Origin: a virus
Direction: 5' to 3' (one strand)
IMG/VR virus record: IMGVR_UViG_3300023184_000544
Span: 1 to 22,924 of that record
DNA length: 22,924 nt
Under the pieces are notes generated by a model. It searched no databases, had not been told where the DNA came from, and saw only the letters and a list, made by a program, of their open reading frames with translations. Positions 8,340-22,924 of the stretch are shown one piece after another (within the stretch, counting starts at the first letter, position 1; every line of letters begins with the position of its first letter). The translations under genes and the position numbers were made by a program.

Positions 8340-9407
8340 TTATGAAGTGGCAGCCGCAGAGGCTGTTTTTCCGCAGGTGTTAACACACTGATATGGTCTG
8401 CCTTCGGCAATGCTAGATTTGCTCCAGGCCTTCTCTACACTTTCAAACCAGGCCAAACAGTGTTCCAATGGGTACTGCAAAGCATTGTTTTCTTGCACCA
8501 TTGGTGCTAGTTCTTGATTGCCTGGGTGACTCATGGTGTGTGGATAAAATCCAAGATAACAACAAGGATATACTGACCCATCAGCAGCAATGTATATTTC
8601 TTGATTTTTTTTATGAATGCAATCTATAGATAAATTTGGTACATCCTTATGTGAGCGATAAGTTTTTGCACTATACCAGGTGATATGATTTTCTATAAGT
8701 GCGTGTATAGGCGGAGGCTGATCGCCTGGCGGTGTAGGTCCAATGTAATGAGTAAACTTGCCATCTCTTGTGAAAACTGGGCCAGTATCTCGACCATCGT
8801 GTATGTTTTCAAACCCAAAAAAACCCATCTCTCTAGCCATCTTTCGACATTCTTGCTCTTGATGACGGTTGTGATCAAATGGCACAAAGCGCCACACAGC
8901 ACGGCCGCCGGCGGCAATCAAGGCTTGTGCATGTTCGATAATTCTATGCCAATCTGTGTCTTGACGATATAGTTTGTGGGTGTCACTCATGCCATCTATA
9001 GCAAATCCCACAGTGACCCCTGTCAGGGCCAGTCTGCGCCACCAGTCTGCATTGCGTAAACTGCCGTTGGTATTGATATGAACTGGTACGTCATACTCGG
9101 CAATGTATTCAACTATTTCCACAGCATCTCGAGCTGATGCAAAGTCACCAAGATTGCCATTGAATGTGATACCCCTAAATCCAAATATCTTGGGAACTAA
9201 TCCATTTATTGCAGCTTCGGGTTGAATTAATTGTGCCAGCAACTCTGGAGTCACAATGTGTTTGAAATCTGCCAATGACAGTTCACACAAAGGATATCCA
9301 GAATTAAATTCTGACCCTCTGTAATTACGCATGCACATGGGGCATCGAGCGTTGCATCTTGTAGTCAATTCAATGTGCAATCGACGAATTTCTGATAGTT
9401 TTAACAT
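8340..9407 (-). CDS. Radical SAM enzyme with C-terminal cysteine cluster
   Basis: I start at the ATG at 9407 (355 residues), because M-L-K-L-S-E-I-R-R-L leads straight into the family core; the upstream ATG at 9452 would overlap the divergent gene. C18-N-A-R-C22-P-M-C25 is the CxxxCxxC motif that binds the [4Fe-4S] cluster and cleaves S-adenosylmethionine. The barrel strands F-x-G-N-L-G-D and I-N-T-N-G-S follow, as in this superfamily. The C-terminal third has a D-G-S-V-Y-P-C-C segment and further Cys residues, as in SPASM/twitch auxiliary-cluster domains. Such enzymes modify peptides, sugars or small molecules. It heads a minus-strand trio with two glycosyltransferase-like genes, so a modified sugar or glycosylated peptide is plausible. 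Substrate unknown. Confidence 0.82.
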   Translation of the reverse strand: MLKLSEIRRLHIELTTRCNARCPMCMRNYRGSEFNSGYPLCELSLADFKHIVTPELLAQLIQPEAAINGLVPKIFGFRGITFNGNLGDFASARDAVEIVEYIAEYDVPVHINTNGSLRNADWWRRLALTGVTVGFAIDGMSDTHKLYRQDTDWHRIIEHAQALIAAGGRAVWRFVPFDHNRHQEQECRKMAREMGFFGFENIHDGRDTGPVFTRDGKFTHYIGPTPPGDQPPPIHALIENHITWYSAKTYRSHKDVPNLSIDCIHKKNQEIYIAADGSVYPCCYLGFYPHTMSHPGNQELAPMVQENNALQYPLEHCLAWFESVEKAWSKSSIAEGRPYQCVNTCGKTASAAATS

Positions 9408-9412
9408 TGTGA

Positions 9413-9420
9413 TATTTATA
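9413..9420 (-). promoter_or_regulatory. T4-type late promoter octamer TATAAATA (minus strand)
   Basis: The minus strand reads TATAAATA exactly, the T4 late promoter consensus recognised by the late sigma factor gp55. The usual spacing would put the transcript start at about base 9407, the first base of the radical SAM ATG, giving a leaderless or near-leaderless message. No Shine-Dalgarno sequence precedes that ATG. Confidence 0.45.
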
Positions 9421-9432
9421 GCTGTATATTTT

Positions 9433-9440
9433 GCTAAATA
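9433..9440 (+). promoter_or_regulatory. Possible late promoter octamer GCTAAATA (plus strand)
   Basis: GCTAAATA matches six of eight bases of the T4 late octamer. It ends 6 bases before the ATG at 9447, facing away from the minus-strand octamer in the same 39-base gap. The gap is AT-rich, so chance resemblance is possible. Confidence 0.3.
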
Positions 9441-9446
9441 TATCTT

Positions 9447-9746
9447 ATGCAAACCAAATCAGTTCAAGTTCATTGTGATGTTTATTGCAAATGGGATGGC
9501 AATGACACCCGCTACAGATTGTATGTAAATGACGAGTTGTTTACAGAAAGATCCTGGATTTGGAACGGCAAAGATTACTACTTGGAAGAAGTAATACCCA
9601 TTCAGGCACCACCAGGTTTGTACAAAATTAAATATGAACTACTTGAACCGTGTGGCAGCAAATTAAAAATAAGAAACATGCGGGTAGCAAGTAAAAATGC
9701 TGCAATACACGAAGATCAAATAACATTGGAAATACCATCATCATGA
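9447..9746 (+). CDS. Small beta-rich conserved-type protein
   Basis: The 99-residue protein alternates polar and hydrophobic residues through most of its length, with W-D-G-N-D, R-Y-R-L-Y-V-N-D and P-P-G-L-Y-K-I-K-Y, which reads like a small beta-sandwich such as a carbohydrate-binding or fibre-associated module. I do not recognise a family. The TGA overlaps the ATG of the next gene. No Shine-Dalgarno sequence is present; a late-like octamer lies immediately upstream. It starts the plus-strand block that leads to the Dps-like and LysM genes, which suggests a late, virion-associated role, but that is inference. Confidence 0.6.
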   Translation: MQTKSVQVHCDVYCKWDGNDTRYRLYVNDELFTERSWIWNGKDYYLEEVIPIQAPPGLYKIKYELLEPCGSKLKIRNMRVASKNAAIHEDQITLEIPSS

Positions 9747-15241: not shown

Positions 15242-15279
15242 GCTCACATTACGAGCATGTATCATGGCCAGTCCGGCCA
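15242..15279 (+). promoter_or_regulatory. Two hairpins in the polymerase mRNA leader, possible translational operator
   Basis: GCTC (15242-15245) pairs with GAGC (15253-15256) over a 7-base loop, and TGGCC (15265-15269) pairs with GGCCA (15275-15279) over a 5-base loop. The second hairpin ends 5 bases before the GGAG at 15285-15288 of the polymerase gene. In T4, gp43 represses its own translation by binding a hairpin just upstream of its ribosome binding site; this has the same position but not the T4 sequence. Confidence 0.4.
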
Positions 15280-15292
15280 CAAACGGAGAACA

Positions 15293-17953
15293 ATGAGTTA
15301 TATTGACGCACTATTTGATCGTGAACACGATCGCATCCATGTTGTAGAACGCCGCAGCGGCGTAAGGCAATACCGCGAGTATCCTGCCAACTACATCTTC
15401 TATTACGACGACCCTAGAGGCAAGTTTCAAAGCATTTACGGCACACCGGTCAATAGATTTTCATCACGCAACAACAAAGAATTTCGCAAAGAAGTTCGCA
15501 GCCAATCTGGCAAGCAGTTGTATGAATCAGACATCAATCCTATCTTTAGATGCCTGGAAGAAAACTACAAAGATCAAGATGCTCCTGAACTGCACACAGC
15601 ATTTTTCGACATTGAAGTTGCGTTTGATCAAGAACGTGGATTCTCGCCTGTGGCAGATCCCTTCAATCCCATCACTGCAATATCTGTATATTTGGATTGG
15701 CTGGATCAAATGATCACACTGACTGTGCCACCCAAACATCTAAGTTGGGACACAGCACAAGAACTGGTGAGTGAATTTGAAAACACCATGTTGTTTGAGC
15801 GTGAAGAAGATATGATCAAGATGTTCCTTGATGTGATTGAAGATGCAGACGTGCTTACCGGTTGGAACTCAGAAGGCTATGACATTCCTTACACCGTGAA
15901 TCGTACCACAAGAATACTCAGCAAGGACGACACCAGACGTTTTTGTTTGTGGGGGCAGTTTCCCAAGCAGAGGATGTTTGAACGCTTTGGTGCAGAGAAT
16001 CAAACTTACGACTTGATTGGTCGTGTGCACATGGACTATATGCAGTTGTATCGCAAATACACATACGAAGAACGCCACTCATACTCATTGGATGCCATTG
16101 GTGAATATGAACTGGGCGAACGCAAAACACAATTTGAAGGCACACTGGATCAATTGTACAATCAACACTTCAAGAAGTTTATTGAGTATAACCGCCAAGA
16201 CACTATGATTATTGCCAAGCTGGACAAGAAATTGCGTTTCTTGGACCTGGCCAACGAACTGGCACATGCCAACACTGTGTTGCTACAGACCACAATGGGT
16301 GCTGTGGCAGTGACTGAACAGGCTATCATAAACGAAGCACATGAACGTGGCATGGTTGTTCCTAATCGCAAGCAACGTCTTACAGACGATGACACACAGG
16401 CCGCTGGTGCTTATGTGGCATATCCTAAAAAGGGTTTGCACATGTGGATTGGATCAGTAGACATTAACTCACTGTATCCATCAGCCATTCGTGCCATGAA
16501 CATGGGTCCAGAAACTGTGGTAGGCCAATTGCGGCAGACCATGACTGATCGCCTGATTAAAGAACGCATGGCCAAAGACGACTCCTTTGCGGCTGCTTGG
16601 GAAGGATTGTTTGCCAGCTTAGAATACACTGCCGTGATGGAACAACAGCGTGGCACAGAAATCACAATTGACTGGGAAGGTGGCGAAGAGTCAGTTCACT
16701 CGGCCATGGAAATCTGGCACATGATCTTTGACTCACATCAACCTTGGATTCTTACTGCTAATGGTACCATTCTCACTTACGAGAAGAAAGGCATCATTCC
16801 CGGCTTGTTGGAACGCTGGTATCGTGAACGCCAAGAGCTACAGGCCAAGAAGAAAGAAACCAAGGATCCCAAAGAGATTGCGTTCTGGGACAAGCGTCAG
16901 TTGGTCAAGAAAATTAATCTTAACAGCCTGTACGGCGCTATTTTGAATCCAGGTTGCCGTTTCTTTGATAAGCGTATTGGTCAGTCAACCACACTGGCCG
17001 GCAGATCCATTGCCAAGCACATGGATGCATACATCAACGAGTGTATCACAGGCGAATATGATCACACAGGCAAGGCCATCATCTATGGTGATACAGACTC
17101 ATGTTATTTTTCTGCTTGGCCCATCTTGGAAAAAGAAGTTGCAGAAGGGCGCATGGAATGGTCAAAAGAAACTTGCATCCAACTGTATGATTCAATTGCT
17201 GATCAAGTTAACGAGAGCTTTCCGGCATTTATGGAACAGGCATTCCATTGTCCCAGAGACATGGGCTCACTGATCAAGGCCGGTCGTGAACTGGTTGCTG
17301 ACCGCAGTTTGTTCATTACCAAGAAGCGTTATGCTGTAAACATCATTGACTTGGAAGGCAAGCGACTGGATGTAGAAGGCAAGATTGGCAAGACCAAGGC
17401 CATGGGCCTGGACTTGAAACGCTCAGACACACCCAAAGTAATTCAAGACTTCCTGTTGGAAATTCTAAATAAAGTTCTAGCAGGTATACAACGAGATGAG
17501 ATTATTGAACGCATTAGAGAATTCAAGTACGAGTTTAAAGAGCGTCCAGGCTGGGAGAAAGGGTCGCCCAAGCGTGTGAACAACTTGACCAAGTACAGCA
17601 AAGAAGAAGAACGACTGGGTCGTGCCAACATGCCCGGGCATGTAAGAGCAGCACTTAACTGGAACAATCTGCGTAGAATGCATTCAGACAATTACTCAAT
17701 GCAAGTTGTGGATGGCATGAAAACCATTGTGTGTAAATTAAAATCAAATGCTCTTGGATGGACATCAATTGGCTATCCCACAGACGAGATGCACTTGCCA
17801 CAGTGGTTCAAAGACCTGCCGTTTGACGACACAGAAATGGAAGCAACTGTAGTAGATCAAAAGATTGACAACTTGCTGGGTGTGCTGGAGTGGGATCTTG
17901 CGTCTGCTACCAACACAGAAAACACATTTACATCATTATTTTCATTCGAATGA
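15293..17953 (+). CDS. gp43: Family B DNA polymerase, T4 gp43 type
   Basis: The replicative polymerase, with 3'-5' proofreading. I start at ATG 15293 (886 residues; T4 has 898) because GGAG lies four bases upstream and the protein then begins M-S-Y-I-D-A-L-F; an in-frame ATG 36 bases earlier lacks a ribosome binding site. Exonuclease motifs are D106-I-E108, N192 with D197, and Y299-N-R-Q-D303. Polymerase motif A is D390-I-N-S-L-Y-P-S, motif B K540-I-N-L-N-S-L-Y-G548, and motif C Y598-G-D-T-D-S603. All catalytic residues are present. The last eight residues, F-T-S-L-F-S-F-E, are a hydrophobic tail in the position of the clamp-binding peptide of T4-like polymerases. The TGA overlaps the next ATG. 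It is the anchor of the DNA block. Confidence 0.97.
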   Translation: MSYIDALFDREHDRIHVVERRSGVRQYREYPANYIFYYDDPRGKFQSIYGTPVNRFSSRNNKEFRKEVRSQSGKQLYESDINPIFRCLEENYKDQDAPELHTAFFDIEVAFDQERGFSPVADPFNPITAISVYLDWLDQMITLTVPPKHLSWDTAQELVSEFENTMLFEREEDMIKMFLDVIEDADVLTGWNSEGYDIPYTVNRTTRILSKDDTRRFCLWGQFPKQRMFERFGAENQTYDLIGRVHMDYMQLYRKYTYEERHSYSLDAIGEYELGERKTQFEGTLDQLYNQHFKKFIEYNRQDTMIIAKLDKKLRFLDLANELAHANTVLLQTTMGAVAVTEQAIINEAHERGMVVPNRKQRLTDDDTQAAGAYVAYPKKGLHMWIGSVDINSLYPSAIRAMNMGPETVVGQLRQTMTDRLIKERMAKDDSFAAAWEGLFASLEYTAVMEQQRGTEITIDWEGGEESVHSAMEIWHMIFDSHQPWILTANGTILTYEKKGIIPGLLERWYRERQELQAKKKETKDPKEIAFWDKRQLVKKINLNSLYGAILNPGCRFFDKRIGQSTTLAGRSIAKHMDAYINECITGEYDHTGKAIIYGDTDSCYFSAWPILEKEVAEGRMEWSKETCIQLYDSIADQVNESFPAFMEQAFHCPRDMGSLIKAGRELVADRSLFITKKRYAVNIIDLEGKRLDVEGKIGKTKAMGLDLKRSDTPKVIQDFLLEILNKVLAGIQRDEIIERIREFKYEFKERPGWEKGSPKRVNNLTKYSKEEERLGRANMPGHVRAALNWNNLRRMHSDNYSMQVVDGMKTIVCKLKSNALGWTSIGYPTDEMHLPQWFKDLPFDDTEMEATVVDQKIDNLLGVLEWDLASATNTENTFTSLFSFE

Positions 17954-18891
17954 AGCTGAGCCAAGTTGTTGCATACCTAAACATGTTAGACAGCACTGAC
18001 ATGGATCCGTCTTATGGCAATATAACTGACAAGTTAGATGACATATTAGTCGCCGTTAAACAAAGAGATTTGCAGTATCATTCTGCCACCGCGGAACTCG
18101 ATGAGCGCCTGGGCGATGTCAAACATTCAATTGGCAAATTTGATCAATCACTTCAAGCACTCAAGCAACAGTTGATAAATGACGTTGATCGACTGGCGCC
18201 CGAATACTACGCTGAAAGCTGGAAACGATATGAGCAAGAAATGTGTTTTGAAACTGTAGAGCATTTGATCAATCGTAAATTGCCTATTGAGTTTGAAGAT
18301 CACAAACGTCTGCGCAATACAATAAAGAATTACACTGATTGGAGATTACCAGGCATGGTAATTGGTGCCAGACGCGAAACATTCATAGAAGACATGGTGC
18401 CAATGGATCCATTGTATCTTGTGGATCACGATAGAGAATTGATCAATGTTGCCATGAGTCCATTTACCCAAGAGTATCAACGTCGATTGAGACCTTATGT
18501 GATTAACGACTGGAAAGACACAGAAATTTTTGCAGCATTGCCAACCAATCAGTTTGGCTTGGTATTTGCTTACAACTATTTCAACTGGAAACCAATTGAG
18601 ATGATTGAAAAGTTTCTTTCAGAAATATATCAAAAACTACGACCTGGTGGCGCTTTGGTTTTTACCTACAATGAATGCGATAGTTGGTACGGTGTTGGTG
18701 CTGTAGAAAATGCTTGGATGTGTTACACTCCAGGCAGTCGCATACAATCAATAGCTCGAAACCTTGGCTATAAAATTATCGACCAATGCACCGGTTCTGG
18801 TGGCATTGCTTGGTTTGAAATGCGTAGACCTGGAGAAATCCAAAGTCTGCGAGGCGGGCAAACTTTGGCAAAAGTAATTCGTCAAGAATGA
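17950..18891 (+). CDS. Methyltransferase-like protein with coiled-coil N-terminus
   Basis: I start at the ATG at 17950, overlapping the polymerase TGA (313 residues); upstream starts lie inside the polymerase. Residues about 50-100 are charged with heptad character and probably coil. The C-terminal half resembles a class I SAM-dependent methyltransferase: a strand with P-L-Y-L-V-D-H-D, in the place of the acidic loop, then F-G-L-V-F-A-Y-N and, after a helix, L-R-P-G-G-A-L-V-F-T-Y-N, typical of the motif after the fifth strand. The usual first Gly-rich loop is not obvious, so cofactor binding is uncertain. It separates the polymerase and clamp genes and is on the polymerase transcript. Substrate unknown. 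Confidence 0.6.
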   Translation: MKLSQVVAYLNMLDSTDMDPSYGNITDKLDDILVAVKQRDLQYHSATAELDERLGDVKHSIGKFDQSLQALKQQLINDVDRLAPEYYAESWKRYEQEMCFETVEHLINRKLPIEFEDHKRLRNTIKNYTDWRLPGMVIGARRETFIEDMVPMDPLYLVDHDRELINVAMSPFTQEYQRRLRPYVINDWKDTEIFAALPTNQFGLVFAYNYFNWKPIEMIEKFLSEIYQKLRPGGALVFTYNECDSWYGVGAVENAWMCYTPGSRIQSIARNLGYKIIDQCTGSGGIAWFEMRRPGEIQSLRGGQTLAKVIRQE

Positions 18892-18940: not shown

Positions 18941-19663
18941 ATGAGAGATTATCTATTAGACTTAGTACAACACACACATGATCTGGGCTGCATTGACTTG
19001 ATCAAGATCGTGGGCGACGACAAATCCACACAAATTGTAGGTCTGGCCGAAGACATGAGTGTGGTAGTGGAAGGTGAATTTAAAAATCCACACCCAGACT
19101 TTGTGGGCACATTTGGCATGCCTAACTTGGCCAAACTCAAAATCTTGTTGAATCTACAAGAATATAAAGAAAATGCCAAGCTCAGCTTGAGTCGCAGAGC
19201 AGGTGGCGAGCCAGATGGTATCAACTTTGAAAATGCCACAGGCGACTTTAAAAACAACTATCGTTTCATGGCCGAAGCTATTGTGACTGAAAAACTTAAA
19301 ACACCCAAGTTTAAAGGTGTGAACTGGCACATTGAATTTGAACCCACTGTGGCTGCTATCAATCGACTGCGCATGCAAGCACAGGCCAATGCCGAAGAAC
19401 CACACTTCCAGGCAAAGACTGAAAATGGCGACTTGAAGTTTTTCTTTGGTGATCATTCAACACACTCTGGCAACTTTGTGTTCCACCCAGGTGTGAATGG
19501 ACAATTGAAACGTGCATGGTCGTGGCCTGCTCAACAAGTCATGAGCATCTTGGCACTCACAGGTGACAAGACTATTCGCATTAGTGATGATGGTGCAGCC
19601 AAAATCACTGTGGACAGTGGCATGGTTGTTTACAACTACATCTTACCAGCACAAAGCAAGTGA
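18941..19663 (+). CDS. gp45: Sliding clamp, T4 gp45 type
   Basis: A 240-residue protein close to the T4 clamp length of 228. It has two beta-rich halves, with L-A-K-L-K-I-L-L-N-L and V-A-A-I-N-R-L-R-M in places where clamp subunits carry their inner helices, and an ending N-Y-I-L-P-A in the position of the last clamp strand. The ring tethers the polymerase and, in T4, also late transcription factors. Sequence similarity to T4 gp45 is low by eye, so the call rests on size, fold pattern and position near gp43. It has its own consensus promoter and AGGAG ribosome binding site. Its TGA overlaps the GTG of the DpdA-like gene. Confidence 0.75.
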   Translation: MRDYLLDLVQHTHDLGCIDLIKIVGDDKSTQIVGLAEDMSVVVEGEFKNPHPDFVGTFGMPNLAKLKILLNLQEYKENAKLSLSRRAGGEPDGINFENATGDFKNNYRFMAEAIVTEKLKTPKFKGVNWHIEFEPTVAAINRLRMQAQANAEEPHFQAKTENGDLKFFFGDHSTHSGNFVFHPGVNGQLKRAWSWPAQQVMSILALTGDKTIRISDDGAAKITVDSGMVVYNYILPAQSK

Positions 19664-21210
19664 GCCAAGATAATTTAACTGCCAAACAATCAGACTACGC
19701 TGTGTTCCTTCCGGCCATTAGCGGGTTCTATTCCACATTTGTGGGCAAGCAAAGGAACGAACACTATGTGGATCCTGCACGATTTCCGCAAGGCTTTACA
19801 GATATGGAACAACTTAACTGGCTCAATTCCCAGAAGGCTTTGTTTCCTTATCGTTGGTCACTTGCGTCTGGAGGCCATGCCAACCTTGATCTCTCCAAAC
19901 AAGACTGGTCAGAAGACATGGTACGAAACCGTGAACCTGGCACGTTCCTCTTAGGCGACTCCGGTGGTTTTCAGATTGCCAAAGGCCTGTGGGAAGGCGA
20001 TTGGAAGGCCAACTCAGGTTGTGCTAAAGCTCAAAAGAAACGTGAACTGGTGCTCAACTGGCTGGACAATGTTTCTAATTACTGCATGACACTTGACATT
20101 CCCACTTGGGTTATTCATGACAAGAAAGCATCCACAGCATGTCAAATTTCCACACTGCAAGAAGCAGTGGATGCTACCAAGTTCAACAACGAATACTTCA
20201 TGAAGCACCGCAAGGGCGTTCGCAATGGCGGCACCAAGATCTTAAATGTGTTGCAGGGCGACAATCATGGCAGTGCAGATCAGTGGTATGACACCATGAA
20301 GGAATACTGCGATCCTGTCAAGTATCCAGACACACACTTTGACGGTTGGTCAATGGGCGGACAGAACATGTGTGACGTTCACTTGGTACTAAGACGCTTG
20401 GTGGCCCTGCGTTATGACAATTTGTTGCAGGAAGGTGTGCATGACTGGATGCACTTCTTGGGCACATCAAAGTTGGAATGGGCTGTGCTGCTTACTGTGA
20501 TTCAAAGGGCAGTTAGAAAATACGTCAATCCAGCTTTCACTATCAGTTTTGATTGTGCCAGCCCATTCCTTGCCACAGCCAATGGACAGGTCTATTTTGA
20601 AAATGTATTTGAACACGACTCAAAATGGTCTTATCGCATGGCTCCGTCAGCTGATGACAAAAAGTACTCAACAGACACACGCAAGTGGTCAACTGGTGTG
20701 GTGGCAGATGGAATCTATCCACGCTGGGAAGACAGTCCTCTAAGCGACTTGTTCAAGATGAAAGATATTTGTATCTACAAGCCTGGCGATCTAAATAAGA
20801 TTGGCAAAGAAGGCAAGACATCATGGGATAGTTTCTCATATGCACTGCTTATGGGGCATAATGTTTGGATGCATCTAACTGCTGTGCAAGAAGCCAATCG
20901 TCGATTTGATGCAGGAGAGCATCCTGCAATGATGCGCCGTAGCACAGGTGACTATGCTCGATTTGAAGACATTGTGGAAGCAATCTTTGCTGCGCCAGAT
21001 CGTGATACCGCAGAAGCCATTATCGAAACATACGATAGTTATTGGATGGAGATTGTGGGCACCCGAGGATTCAAAGGTAAGAAAACTAAAAATGCAAGAA
21101 CTCAATTTAATGCACTGTTCTCTTTTGAACAACCAGAAGTTGACACAGACCCCGAAGATCAGTTACAATCAGAAGCATTACAACTGCTTGAAAGCGAGCA
21201 AATCAAATGA
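19660..21210 (+). CDS. dpdA: DpdA-like DNA transglycosylase (7-deazaguanine insertion) with clamp-binding-like motif
   Basis: The 516-residue protein starts at GTG 19660, overlapping the clamp stop as GTGA. It matches the tRNA-guanine transglycosylase barrel: G99-D100-S-G-G-F-Q105 (acid/base Asp), L145-D146, Q199-G200, M232-G233-G234 and F297-D298-C-A-S-P302, where D298 matches the covalent nucleophile. The C-terminal Cys3-His zinc site of bacterial tRNA enzymes is missing. In phages such paralogues, DpdA, exchange guanine in DNA for a 7-deazaguanine base. Residues 481-490 read T-Q-F-N-A-L-F-S-F-E, nearly the same as the polymerase tail, followed by an acidic C-terminus. Neighbours include a QueD-like gene, which supports a deazaguanine role. 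Acting on DNA rather than tRNA is inferred from context. Confidence 0.82.
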   Translation: MSQDNLTAKQSDYAVFLPAISGFYSTFVGKQRNEHYVDPARFPQGFTDMEQLNWLNSQKALFPYRWSLASGGHANLDLSKQDWSEDMVRNREPGTFLLGDSGGFQIAKGLWEGDWKANSGCAKAQKKRELVLNWLDNVSNYCMTLDIPTWVIHDKKASTACQISTLQEAVDATKFNNEYFMKHRKGVRNGGTKILNVLQGDNHGSADQWYDTMKEYCDPVKYPDTHFDGWSMGGQNMCDVHLVLRRLVALRYDNLLQEGVHDWMHFLGTSKLEWAVLLTVIQRAVRKYVNPAFTISFDCASPFLATANGQVYFENVFEHDSKWSYRMAPSADDKKYSTDTRKWSTGVVADGIYPRWEDSPLSDLFKMKDICIYKPGDLNKIGKEGKTSWDSFSYALLMGHNVWMHLTAVQEANRRFDAGEHPAMMRRSTGDYARFEDIVEAIFAAPDRDTAEAIIETYDSYWMEIVGTRGFKGKKTKNARTQFNALFSFEQPEVDTDPEDQLQSEALQLLESEQIK

Positions 21211-21740
21211 ATCGTCAAGGACACGAAGATACCAATTTCTTTGTAGGCACAGAAGTTGAGGCCAGCCCTGCTGCTGGACATCGCACACTGTTTGTTATAG
21301 GACTACAAACCACTGAAGCAATTGATTGGACACGTGGGAACATTGATTCCAAAGCAAGAAATCCAATCACACACATTTACTTTGGTGCCAATCAAAGTTT
21401 TCCAAATCCCACTTTCAACGATGCCGGAATCTGGACTGCTTGGGAACGCATGATTCAACCGTGGTTGGATCGTGGTTACTGGTGTACATTGGATCTTGAT
21501 TCAAGTGCTGTGGAAGGCCTTTGCGAAGGCAGTTTATGTGAACAATCACAATTTATTCCCATGATATCTGTAAAACTGCCTTACATCAAACTGCTGGGCT
21601 ACAATACCACAATCAAACTGGACGATAAAGACTTCAAAGCAACCAACCCCGGAGTATGGTGTCATAGCCTGCATGATTTGCTGGATAGAAAAACATTCAC
21701 CTCCTGGGATCAATACACAAAGGACGAAGTAATCAAATGA
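21207..21740 (+). CDS. Conserved-type protein of unknown function in the deazaguanine block
   Basis: A 177-residue protein, overlapping both neighbours by ATGA. It alternates strands and helices: T-L-F-V-I-G-L-Q, H-I-Y-F-G-A-N-Q-S-F, Y-W-C-T-L-D-L-D and F-I-P-M-I-S-V-K-L-P, which suggests part of a TIM barrel or a Rossmann-like fold. The final part includes N-P-G-V-W-C-H-S-L-H-D. No CxxxCxxC motif is present, so it is not a normal QueE. I do not recognise a named family. Its tight placement between DpdA-like and QueD-like genes suggests it helps make or load the deazaguanine base, perhaps as a cofactor or a regulator; this is guilt by association only. Confidence 0.6.
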   Translation: MNRQGHEDTNFFVGTEVEASPAAGHRTLFVIGLQTTEAIDWTRGNIDSKARNPITHIYFGANQSFPNPTFNDAGIWTAWERMIQPWLDRGYWCTLDLDSSAVEGLCEGSLCEQSQFIPMISVKLPYIKLLGYNTTIKLDDKDFKATNPGVWCHSLHDLLDRKTFTSWDQYTKDEVIK

Positions 21741-22180
21741 CACAAGTCGAACGCGAAACTATAGAAAGAATCCGGCATGCAGCTCAACGAAAAATCTGGG
21801 TCACGTTTCAAAAGGAAGGCATTCATTGCTATCCAGCCGCAGCAACTGATCCGCAATTGGCGACGGGTGATGAGTACGATGTTAGTTTTCTTGGTACTCC
21901 TCATCGTCATATCTTCCACTTCCGGGTGTGGATATCTGTTGTACACAATGATAGAGACATCGAATTCATCCAGTTCAAGCGATGGCTCGAAAAACTCTAT
22001 TACGAAGGAACCATCCAACTCGACTACAAGAGCTGTGAAATGATGGCAGACGATTTGTATTTGCAAATTGCCGCACGGTATCCAGAGCGTTCAGTCTGGA
22101 TTGAGGTCTCCGAAGATGGTGAAAACGGAGCTCTTATCAAGTATGACACTCACCGCCCCAATATCAGCATTGCTATCTAA
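21737..22180 (+). CDS. QueD/6-pyruvoyltetrahydropterin synthase-like protein
   Basis: The 147-residue protein has the order of a T-fold QueD: C31-Y-P-A-A-A, then H56-R-H58 followed by a long strand (F-H-F-R-V-W-I-S-V), D-R-D-I-E-F then F80-K-R-W-L, and near the end S-C-E-M-M-A-D-D-L-Y and V-W-I-E-V-S-E-D, in the position of the C-terminal Glu strand. QueD makes 6-carboxytetrahydropterin, the second step to preQ0. The first zinc His, usually in A-A-H, is not at the expected position, so activity may be altered or lost. It overlaps the upstream gene by ATGA. A T-fold protein with another role is an alternative. Confidence 0.5.
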   Translation: MTQVERETIERIRHAAQRKIWVTFQKEGIHCYPAAATDPQLATGDEYDVSFLGTPHRHIFHFRVWISVVHNDRDIEFIQFKRWLEKLYYEGTIQLDYKSCEMMADDLYLQIAARYPERSVWIEVSEDGENGALIKYDTHRPNISIAI

Positions 22181-22192
22181 TAGGAAAACAAA

Positions 22193-22414
22193 ATGGCAAA
22201 AATTATTCACAAATCTAACCCCCGTGTAGCAGAGATCCAAGGCGACTTGGAAAAACTCCTAGAGTTCTGCCAGGACTTCGGCTATCGCTACAACGAGGCC
22301 GATTTGTACAACTTCAAGAGTTATGCTTGGCAACAGTATAACAAATATTCACAAGGCAAAAATGCCAAGAACATGTGGGACGAAGATGCTCGTCGCTTTG
22401 CTGGAAGATTCTAA
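22193..22414 (+). CDS. Small conserved-type hypothetical protein
   Basis: A 73-residue charged protein rich in Tyr, Asn and Lys, probably helical (E-I-Q-G-D-L-E-K-L-L-E-F-C). The start is supported by AGGA at 22182-22185, seven bases before the ATG. Its TAA overlaps the next ATG by one base. No motif is recognised. It follows the QueD-like gene by 12 bases and probably shares its transcript. Confidence 0.62.
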   Translation: MAKIIHKSNPRVAEIQGDLEKLLEFCQDFGYRYNEADLYNFKSYAWQQYNKYSQGKNAKNMWDEDARRFAGRF

Positions 22415-22924
22415 TGAGAAAACTATTTTACATGGGCTTGGAAAGCTACGAAGCCCGCTACACTCTACAACTCACAGAGTGGAACCGACGTGTTTTTGAC
22501 CGCAGAGGCCTTGATGTTGTTTATGTGCCTGGCACCACGATTGACAACACACAGGCCATCTCGGTAGGGCAAGTGCTAGATGCACACGGTCGCAGTTTCT
22601 TTGCCATGAGCCAAATGATGAACTTGGTTCAACTGATGAAGAACGGTGATGTTGGGGGAGAGGATGTGATCTACTTTGAAGACATGTTCCAGCCGGGCTT
22701 TGAAAGTCTTGGTTATATCATGAATCAGATTCCACAAGAACAATGTCCAAAGATCTATGTTCGTTGTTTGGCACAGGCCATCGATCCTGATGACTTTGTG
22801 CATGTGTGGGGTATGGCTAAGTGGATGAACTTGTATGAACAAATGGTCAATGAGATGGTGGCTTTCTCGGGGGGTGCAGTATTGGCAACCAATGAGGAAA
22901 TGGTCGCGCACATGCGCATTGCTG
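22414..22924 (+). CDS. Partial protein, possible GT-B glycosyltransferase (3' end cut by window)
   Basis: The frame opens at ATG 22414, overlapping the preceding TAA, and stays open to the window end (170 codons seen). It begins M-R-K-L-F-Y-M-G-L-E-S-Y-E-A-R-Y, an N-terminal strand and loop of the Rossmann type, and contains Y-F-E-D-M-F-Q-P-G, K-I-Y-V-R-C-L-A-Q and V-W-G-M-A-K-W-M. This pattern would fit the N-terminal domain of a GT-B glycosyltransferase, but the nucleotide-binding half lies beyond the window. Phages with modified bases often add sugars to DNA, so a link to the DpdA-like gene is possible. The family remains unproved. Confidence 0.55.
   Translation, partial: MRKLFYMGLESYEARYTLQLTEWNRRVFDRRGLDVVYVPGTTIDNTQAISVGQVLDAHGRSFFAMSQMMNLVQLMKNGDVGGEDVIYFEDMFQPGFESLGYIMNQIPQEQCPKIYVRCLAQAIDPDDFVHVWGMAKWMNLYEQMVNEMVAFSGGAVLATNEEMVAHMRIA

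Follow-up and report, generated by a model that had tools for sequence, protein, structure and literature searches.

The 22,924 nt (22.9 kb) phage fragment analysed here, below called the window (IMG/VR record IMGVR_UViG_3300023184_000544), encodes a DpdA-like transglycosylase whose C-terminal tail carries a close copy of the peptide with which the phage's own DNA polymerase ends. We consider it probable (about 0.8) that this enzyme is tethered to the phage sliding clamp by its tail copy of the polymerase motif, which would aim base modification at phage-replicated DNA. The C-terminus of the polymerase reads ...NTENTFTSLFSFE and its last eight residues are FTSLFSFE (17927-17950, + strand), a putative clamp-binding motif in view of the sequence itself and of the polymerase ends of relatives. 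The DpdA-like protein contains F483-N-A-L-F-S-F-E490 (21106-21129, + strand), which, as the sequence-only reading had pointed out, is identical at six of eight positions. When the DpdA sequence of the window was shuffled, an 8-mer as close to FTSLFSFE appeared in 10 of 20,000 shuffles.

Genes and folds at the locus

The gene order on the + strand of the window is a family B DNA polymerase (PolB, T4 gp43-like, 898 aa, 15257-17953; Pfam PF00136, E 2.9e-34, and PF03104; phrog_262, E 1.8e-195), an ORF of 333 aa ending at 18891 which matches methyltransferases weakly, a sliding clamp (240 aa, 18941-19663) and the DpdA-like gene (516 aa, GTG start, 19660-21210). The clamp gene was indeed found directly upstream of dpdA, the two overlapping by GTGA at 19660-19663, and in some relatives dpdA follows the clamp stop codon in frame. 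Two small conserved genes, of 177 aa and 147 aa (the latter phrog_17812), are located 3' of dpdA at 21207-22180; in the locus L016 equivalents of both likewise come after dpdA, upstream of FolE and QueD. Elsewhere in the window a Radical-SAM-like protein with a weak match to the viperin family (PADLOC pVip, E 5e-7) is encoded at 8340-9452 (- strand). A glycosyltransferase-like gene with the N-terminal pattern ExRYT is common to the window, PA5oct and Sinorhizobium phage Phosso, where it is found near dpdA or near polymerase/FolE genes (22414-22923 in the window, with an open end; L082:7617-8678; L167:7800-8891); the modified base might be a substrate of its product.

No named DpdA or TGT family in Pfam, PHROG, NCBIfam or PADLOC matches the DpdA-like protein, and its sole family link by profile comparison is a weak match to DpdA2 over 45 columns. 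A search of PDB sequences yielded no convincing relatives of either the clamp or DpdA, so that fold comparison was needed. For the AlphaFold2 model of the window DpdA (mean pLDDT 89) the best PDB matches in Foldseek are all tRNA-guanine transglycosylases (E 1.6e-8, 13-14% identity), and its L162 homologue reaches a VIA Z of 18.0 to T. maritima TGT. The residues D100, S101, G102, G103, Q105 and D298 do not vary among 70 DpdA relatives; as in Z. mobilis TGT, DSGGFQ and the Asp in FDCASPF are taken to fill the catalytic roles. The (beta/alpha)8 barrel of TGT and the preserved catalytic signature thus agree with the initial assignment, "DpdA-like" being the safe name for a divergent type that lacks a named-profile match. 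Genes for 7-deazaguanine biosynthesis accompany dpdA in long relatives (FolE in 10 of 10, QueD in 7 of 10, QueC in Vibrio phage 2.275.O only); none is present in the window fragment, which may end before them. We regard the enzyme as a phage DpdA-type transglycosylase which probably exchanges guanine for a 7-deazaguanine.

The clamp is assigned to no named family by sequence and matches only the unnamed phrog_12062 (E 2e-32), while for its homologue in Vibrio phage 2.275.O a hit to phrog_223, annotated as "DNA polymerase processivity factor", was obtained in addition (E 6.7e-5). When the L162 homologue was modelled, its clamp portion proved similar to PCNA (E 1.8e-10 in Foldseek, VIA Z 18.1); the predicted two-domain fold confirms that the gene upstream of dpdA codes for a clamp of the PCNA/gp45 type.

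The tail peptide and its polymerase counterpart

Within the model of the window DpdA, residues 1-469 (19660-21066, + strand) form a TGT-like body which harbours the invariant columns and whose pLDDT is mostly above 90, while residues 470-516 (21067-21207, + strand) form an acidic tail with pLDDT below 50. Hence, the peptide belongs not to the catalytic barrel but to a tail predicted to be disordered, as had been proposed, and is not buried in the predicted fold. A second conserved element of the LxxLE type, recognised by column conservation, occupies residues 507-511 of this tail (21178-21192, + strand).

The collection of IMG/VR and named-phage loci comprised about 390 entries, with 287 distinct DpdAs among them; a three-sequence alignment retrieved such loci, whereas single-protein pattern scans with the PA5oct or Vibrio DpdA found nothing. 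The peptide is present in most of the 287 and is therefore no peculiarity of the window. Among 70 representatives with pairwise identities below 78%, all have F487 (70/70), 52 have F at position 483, 64 have L or F at 486 and 58 have E or D at 488, whereas the tail columns flanking the peptide are weakly conserved. The pattern F..[LF]F was found in 71% of these tails; the corresponding figures are 3% for shuffled tails and 0.4% for body windows of equal length. The aromatic residue at +3 of the polymerase motif is retained in only part of the DpdAs. An [LFI]F core is absent from 17 of the 287 tails, some of which show near variants (LY, HF, FI), while those of L263, L264 and L092 bear little resemblance to the motif. 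In 47 relatives the motif lies within about four residues of the C-terminus, and L199, L200, L210 and L216 possess two FFEE-type motifs, one at the usual site and one at the C-terminus.

The polymerase C-termini of the relatives examined have the [LFI]F core as well. A scoring matrix was built from polymerase C-termini alone; for 129 of 138 DpdAs, its highest-scoring window in the full-length protein fell among the last 75 residues. Across the gene neighbourhoods, a score of at least 12 is reached by 44% of the DpdAs compared to 0.3% of 3,874 other genes, and in one relative (G001, 331 kb) the two highest-scoring genes of 453 are those of the polymerase and DpdA, in this order.

The suggestion that the two peptides change together was followed across the relatives, in which the cores of polymerase and DpdA pair as L/L in 174 cases, F/F in 49, L/F in five and F/L in one. 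Since most of the F/F class belongs to a single clade, a tree-based Pagel test was used, with p 0.002 for the DpdA tree and p 0.026 for the polymerase tree. Coupling of the two sequences thus appears to survive tree correction, if modestly, and for the same reason independent co-switches are few; L152 represents one such joint switch of both peptides. Individual phages illustrate the matching. In Vibrio phage 2.275.O the polymerase ends with NNTDLFDW and DpdA with NNNDLFGW, in L173 the respective ends are VMDNFFEF and VMDTFFEF, and in PA5oct a polymerase ending with FDSLFGW is accompanied by a DpdA containing FNSLFDV. The resemblance is weak in Phosso, whose DpdA ends with EGLF and whose polymerase ends with NDLFTF. 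An apparent return of the group of L090/L202 from FF to LF is not counted as firm; it depends on the DpdA tree, where the node support is 0.25, whereas in the trees of polymerase and clamp the group falls outside the FF clade.

In several lineages (L279, L299, L306, L312 and L055/L057/L062/L074) the motif has degenerated in its usual place, and one resembling it is found at the very C-terminus of DpdA, which then ends with NLFEF, FTNLFDE, FDTLFE or a sequence of the SLFE or ELFGE type. Such a relocation is as expected of a short linear motif under selection.

Three columns of the clamp, W129 (19325-19327, + strand), A219 and I234 (19640-19642, + strand, within the C-terminal YILPA strand), separate the phages of the FFEF clade from their nearest LF relatives, matching most other LF phages; L189 does so less sharply. 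W129 is replaced by F or Y in 51 of 51 clamps of the FFEF class and I234 by Leu in 50 of 51. L086, an LF phage, likewise has F129. Judged from the register of secondary structure rather than from a residue-level alignment with PCNA, W129 is placed close to where the interdomain connector ends and I234 in the last strand; given the PCNA-like fold, both would be expected near the peptide pocket, an assignment which for this reason is approximate.

To view clamp and DpdA together we folded an L162 clamp-DpdA fusion, i.e. the natural sequence with the clamp stop codon read through. For the motif this fusion gives a pLDDT of only about 53 and the model of the window DpdA by itself one of about 38, two values which stem from different proteins and alignments. 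The helix matching the LxxLE element reaches a pLDDT of 83 in the fusion.

Known clamp clients and competing explanations

In T4, gp43 ends with SLDFLFG and gp55 contains SLDFLYE near its end; such hydrophobic-acidic ends bind gp45, and one can take the place of the other (PMC2988020). That the C-terminal peptide of T4-like polymerases docks on gp45, from which the sequence-only reading had argued, is supported by that paper and by PMC7892883. The DpdA tail resembles gp55 and gp33 in that a short hydrophobic-acidic peptide is shared with the polymerase C-terminus and sits on a flexible, divergent linker (pLDDT below 50 at 470-516, flanks poorly conserved). The T4 proteins differ in being transcription factors and in bearing SLDFL[FY] instead of Fxx[LF]F; moreover, their motif is at or near the C-terminus, whereas 26 residues follow it in the window DpdA. 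By analogy with these T4 ends, the DpdA tail is probably a clamp tether.

A closer functional parallel is T4 alpha-glucosyltransferase, which binds gp45 (Sommer 2004; PMC13216743) and, like DpdA on our reading, would represent a phage DNA-modifying enzyme on a phage sliding clamp. It glucosylates hydroxymethylcytosine, whereas a DpdA-type enzyme exchanges the base, and no comparable tail motif is detected in it by the polymerase matrix (best score 6.3, internal). According to a 2026 study, its dominance results mostly from expression and little from clamp binding (PMC13216743). Clamp-bound DNA modification in phages is thus already known from the one precedent found, which weakens both the timing and the novelty of a DpdA tether. 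Nor does the trait extend to all DpdAs. The DpdA2 of Vibrio phage nt-1, a divergent TGT-like protein in a preQ0 locus as well (PMC6884629), lacks the tail motif (it ends with PDFKS) and does not adjoin a clamp gene, so that tethering of all DpdAs is ruled out and the trait would be confined to the present branch. PA5oct belongs to this branch, its enzyme being homologous (35% identity) and its polymerase and clamp occurring in the same order. Its system for deazaguanine synthesis and incorporation was recognised in a 2021 jumbo-phage survey (PMC7824862), while the literature on the system yielded no description of the tail peptide or of a clamp link. In the openly accessible literature, to which the search extended, we found no link between any DpdA and a sliding clamp, in keeping with what had been stated at the outset.

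The shortness of the motif and its absence from some DpdAs could be taken to indicate that a conserved hydrophobic tail resembles the polymerase end by coincidence, with no function in common. Given the shuffle and neighbourhood controls, the invariance of F487 within a disordered tail, the phage-by-phage matching and the relocation to the C-terminus, we regard this as very improbable. It is unlikely, too, that the peptide is directed at another partner, be it the phage SSB, the clamp loader, another replication protein or DpdA itself (as a dimer or in autoinhibition), and resembles the polymerase end because both use one non-clamp hub. In the AlphaFold2 fusion the motif is not confidently placed on the clamp, and in view of the well-predicted LxxLE element the tail may have further contacts. 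Yet, a peptide shared in this way is the gp45-binding epitope in T4-like phages (PMC2988020, PMC7892883), the clamp gene is in the same locus as dpdA in 282 of the 287 distinct relatives, and the clamp columns which set the FFEF clade apart from its nearest LF relatives include W129 and I234, which would be expected close to that pocket of the clamp where the peptide binds.

A doubtful but more serious possibility is that the clamp does tether DpdA, though for another purpose, namely exclusion of host DNA, clamp-activated late transcription or repair; as a variant of our preferred explanation it overlaps with it. The T4 clamp also tethers late-transcription factors (PMC7892883), and clamp binding of alpha-glucosyltransferase did not set the share of modification (PMC13216743). 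The polymerase-type peptides and the linkage to the PolB gene point towards replication, which they favour without deciding the matter.

A proposed clamp-tethered transglycosylase

Conservation, the disordered tail, the matching with the polymerase, relocation and the predicted folds together provide good indirect support for the initial proposal that the clamp recruits DpdA; direct binding, the pocket, the base acted upon and an action close to replication are inferred. In the mechanism we favour, the C-terminal tail of DpdA would serve as a flexible tether with a short clamp-binding motif copied from the polymerase, and this motif would insert into the peptide pocket of the clamp encoded just upstream. 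The clamp, as a ring with several sites, would hold DpdA on DNA in the way the polymerase is held, and base exchange would therefore be directed to clamp-loaded, phage-replicated DNA and be processive along it. That guanine might be replaced just behind the fork, as proposed before, is a reasonable reading. With the docking peptide of the polymerase copied in DpdA, the DNA would be chemically armoured by the protective 7-deazaguanine where it has just been copied.

More speculatively, the clamp could be a tool-belt for DNA hypermodification, on which DpdA and, in some phages, further enzymes ride, guanine being rewritten co-replicatively as a step of the replisome. In Vibrio phage 2.275.O an amidoligase-like protein, gp469 (L084:7723-8835, identical to L430:16034-17146; PF12224, E 1.8e-4), is encoded directly after dpdA; its start, MFNELFDFND, is the best polymerase-type motif among 536 predicted genes, and gp469 is possibly a second clamp client. 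The metallophosphoesterases (phrog_1649) of two distant phages end with NFDDFFSVEI (L421:1576-2370) and VFDPNFSFDV (L434:12873-13706), both resembling the clamp motif.

To our knowledge, T4 alpha-glucosyltransferase is the only case in which DNA hypermodification is coupled to a phage clamp. A clamp tether of DpdA, if true, would bear on the time and place at which guanine gives way to 7-deazaguanine in phage DNA as well as on the sparing of host DNA, and would reduce the question to a point mutant (F487A). It would also mean that clamp-coupled hypermodification has arisen for another chemistry, and this in uncultured phages by the hundreds as well as in jumbo phages that can be cultured, PA5oct among them.
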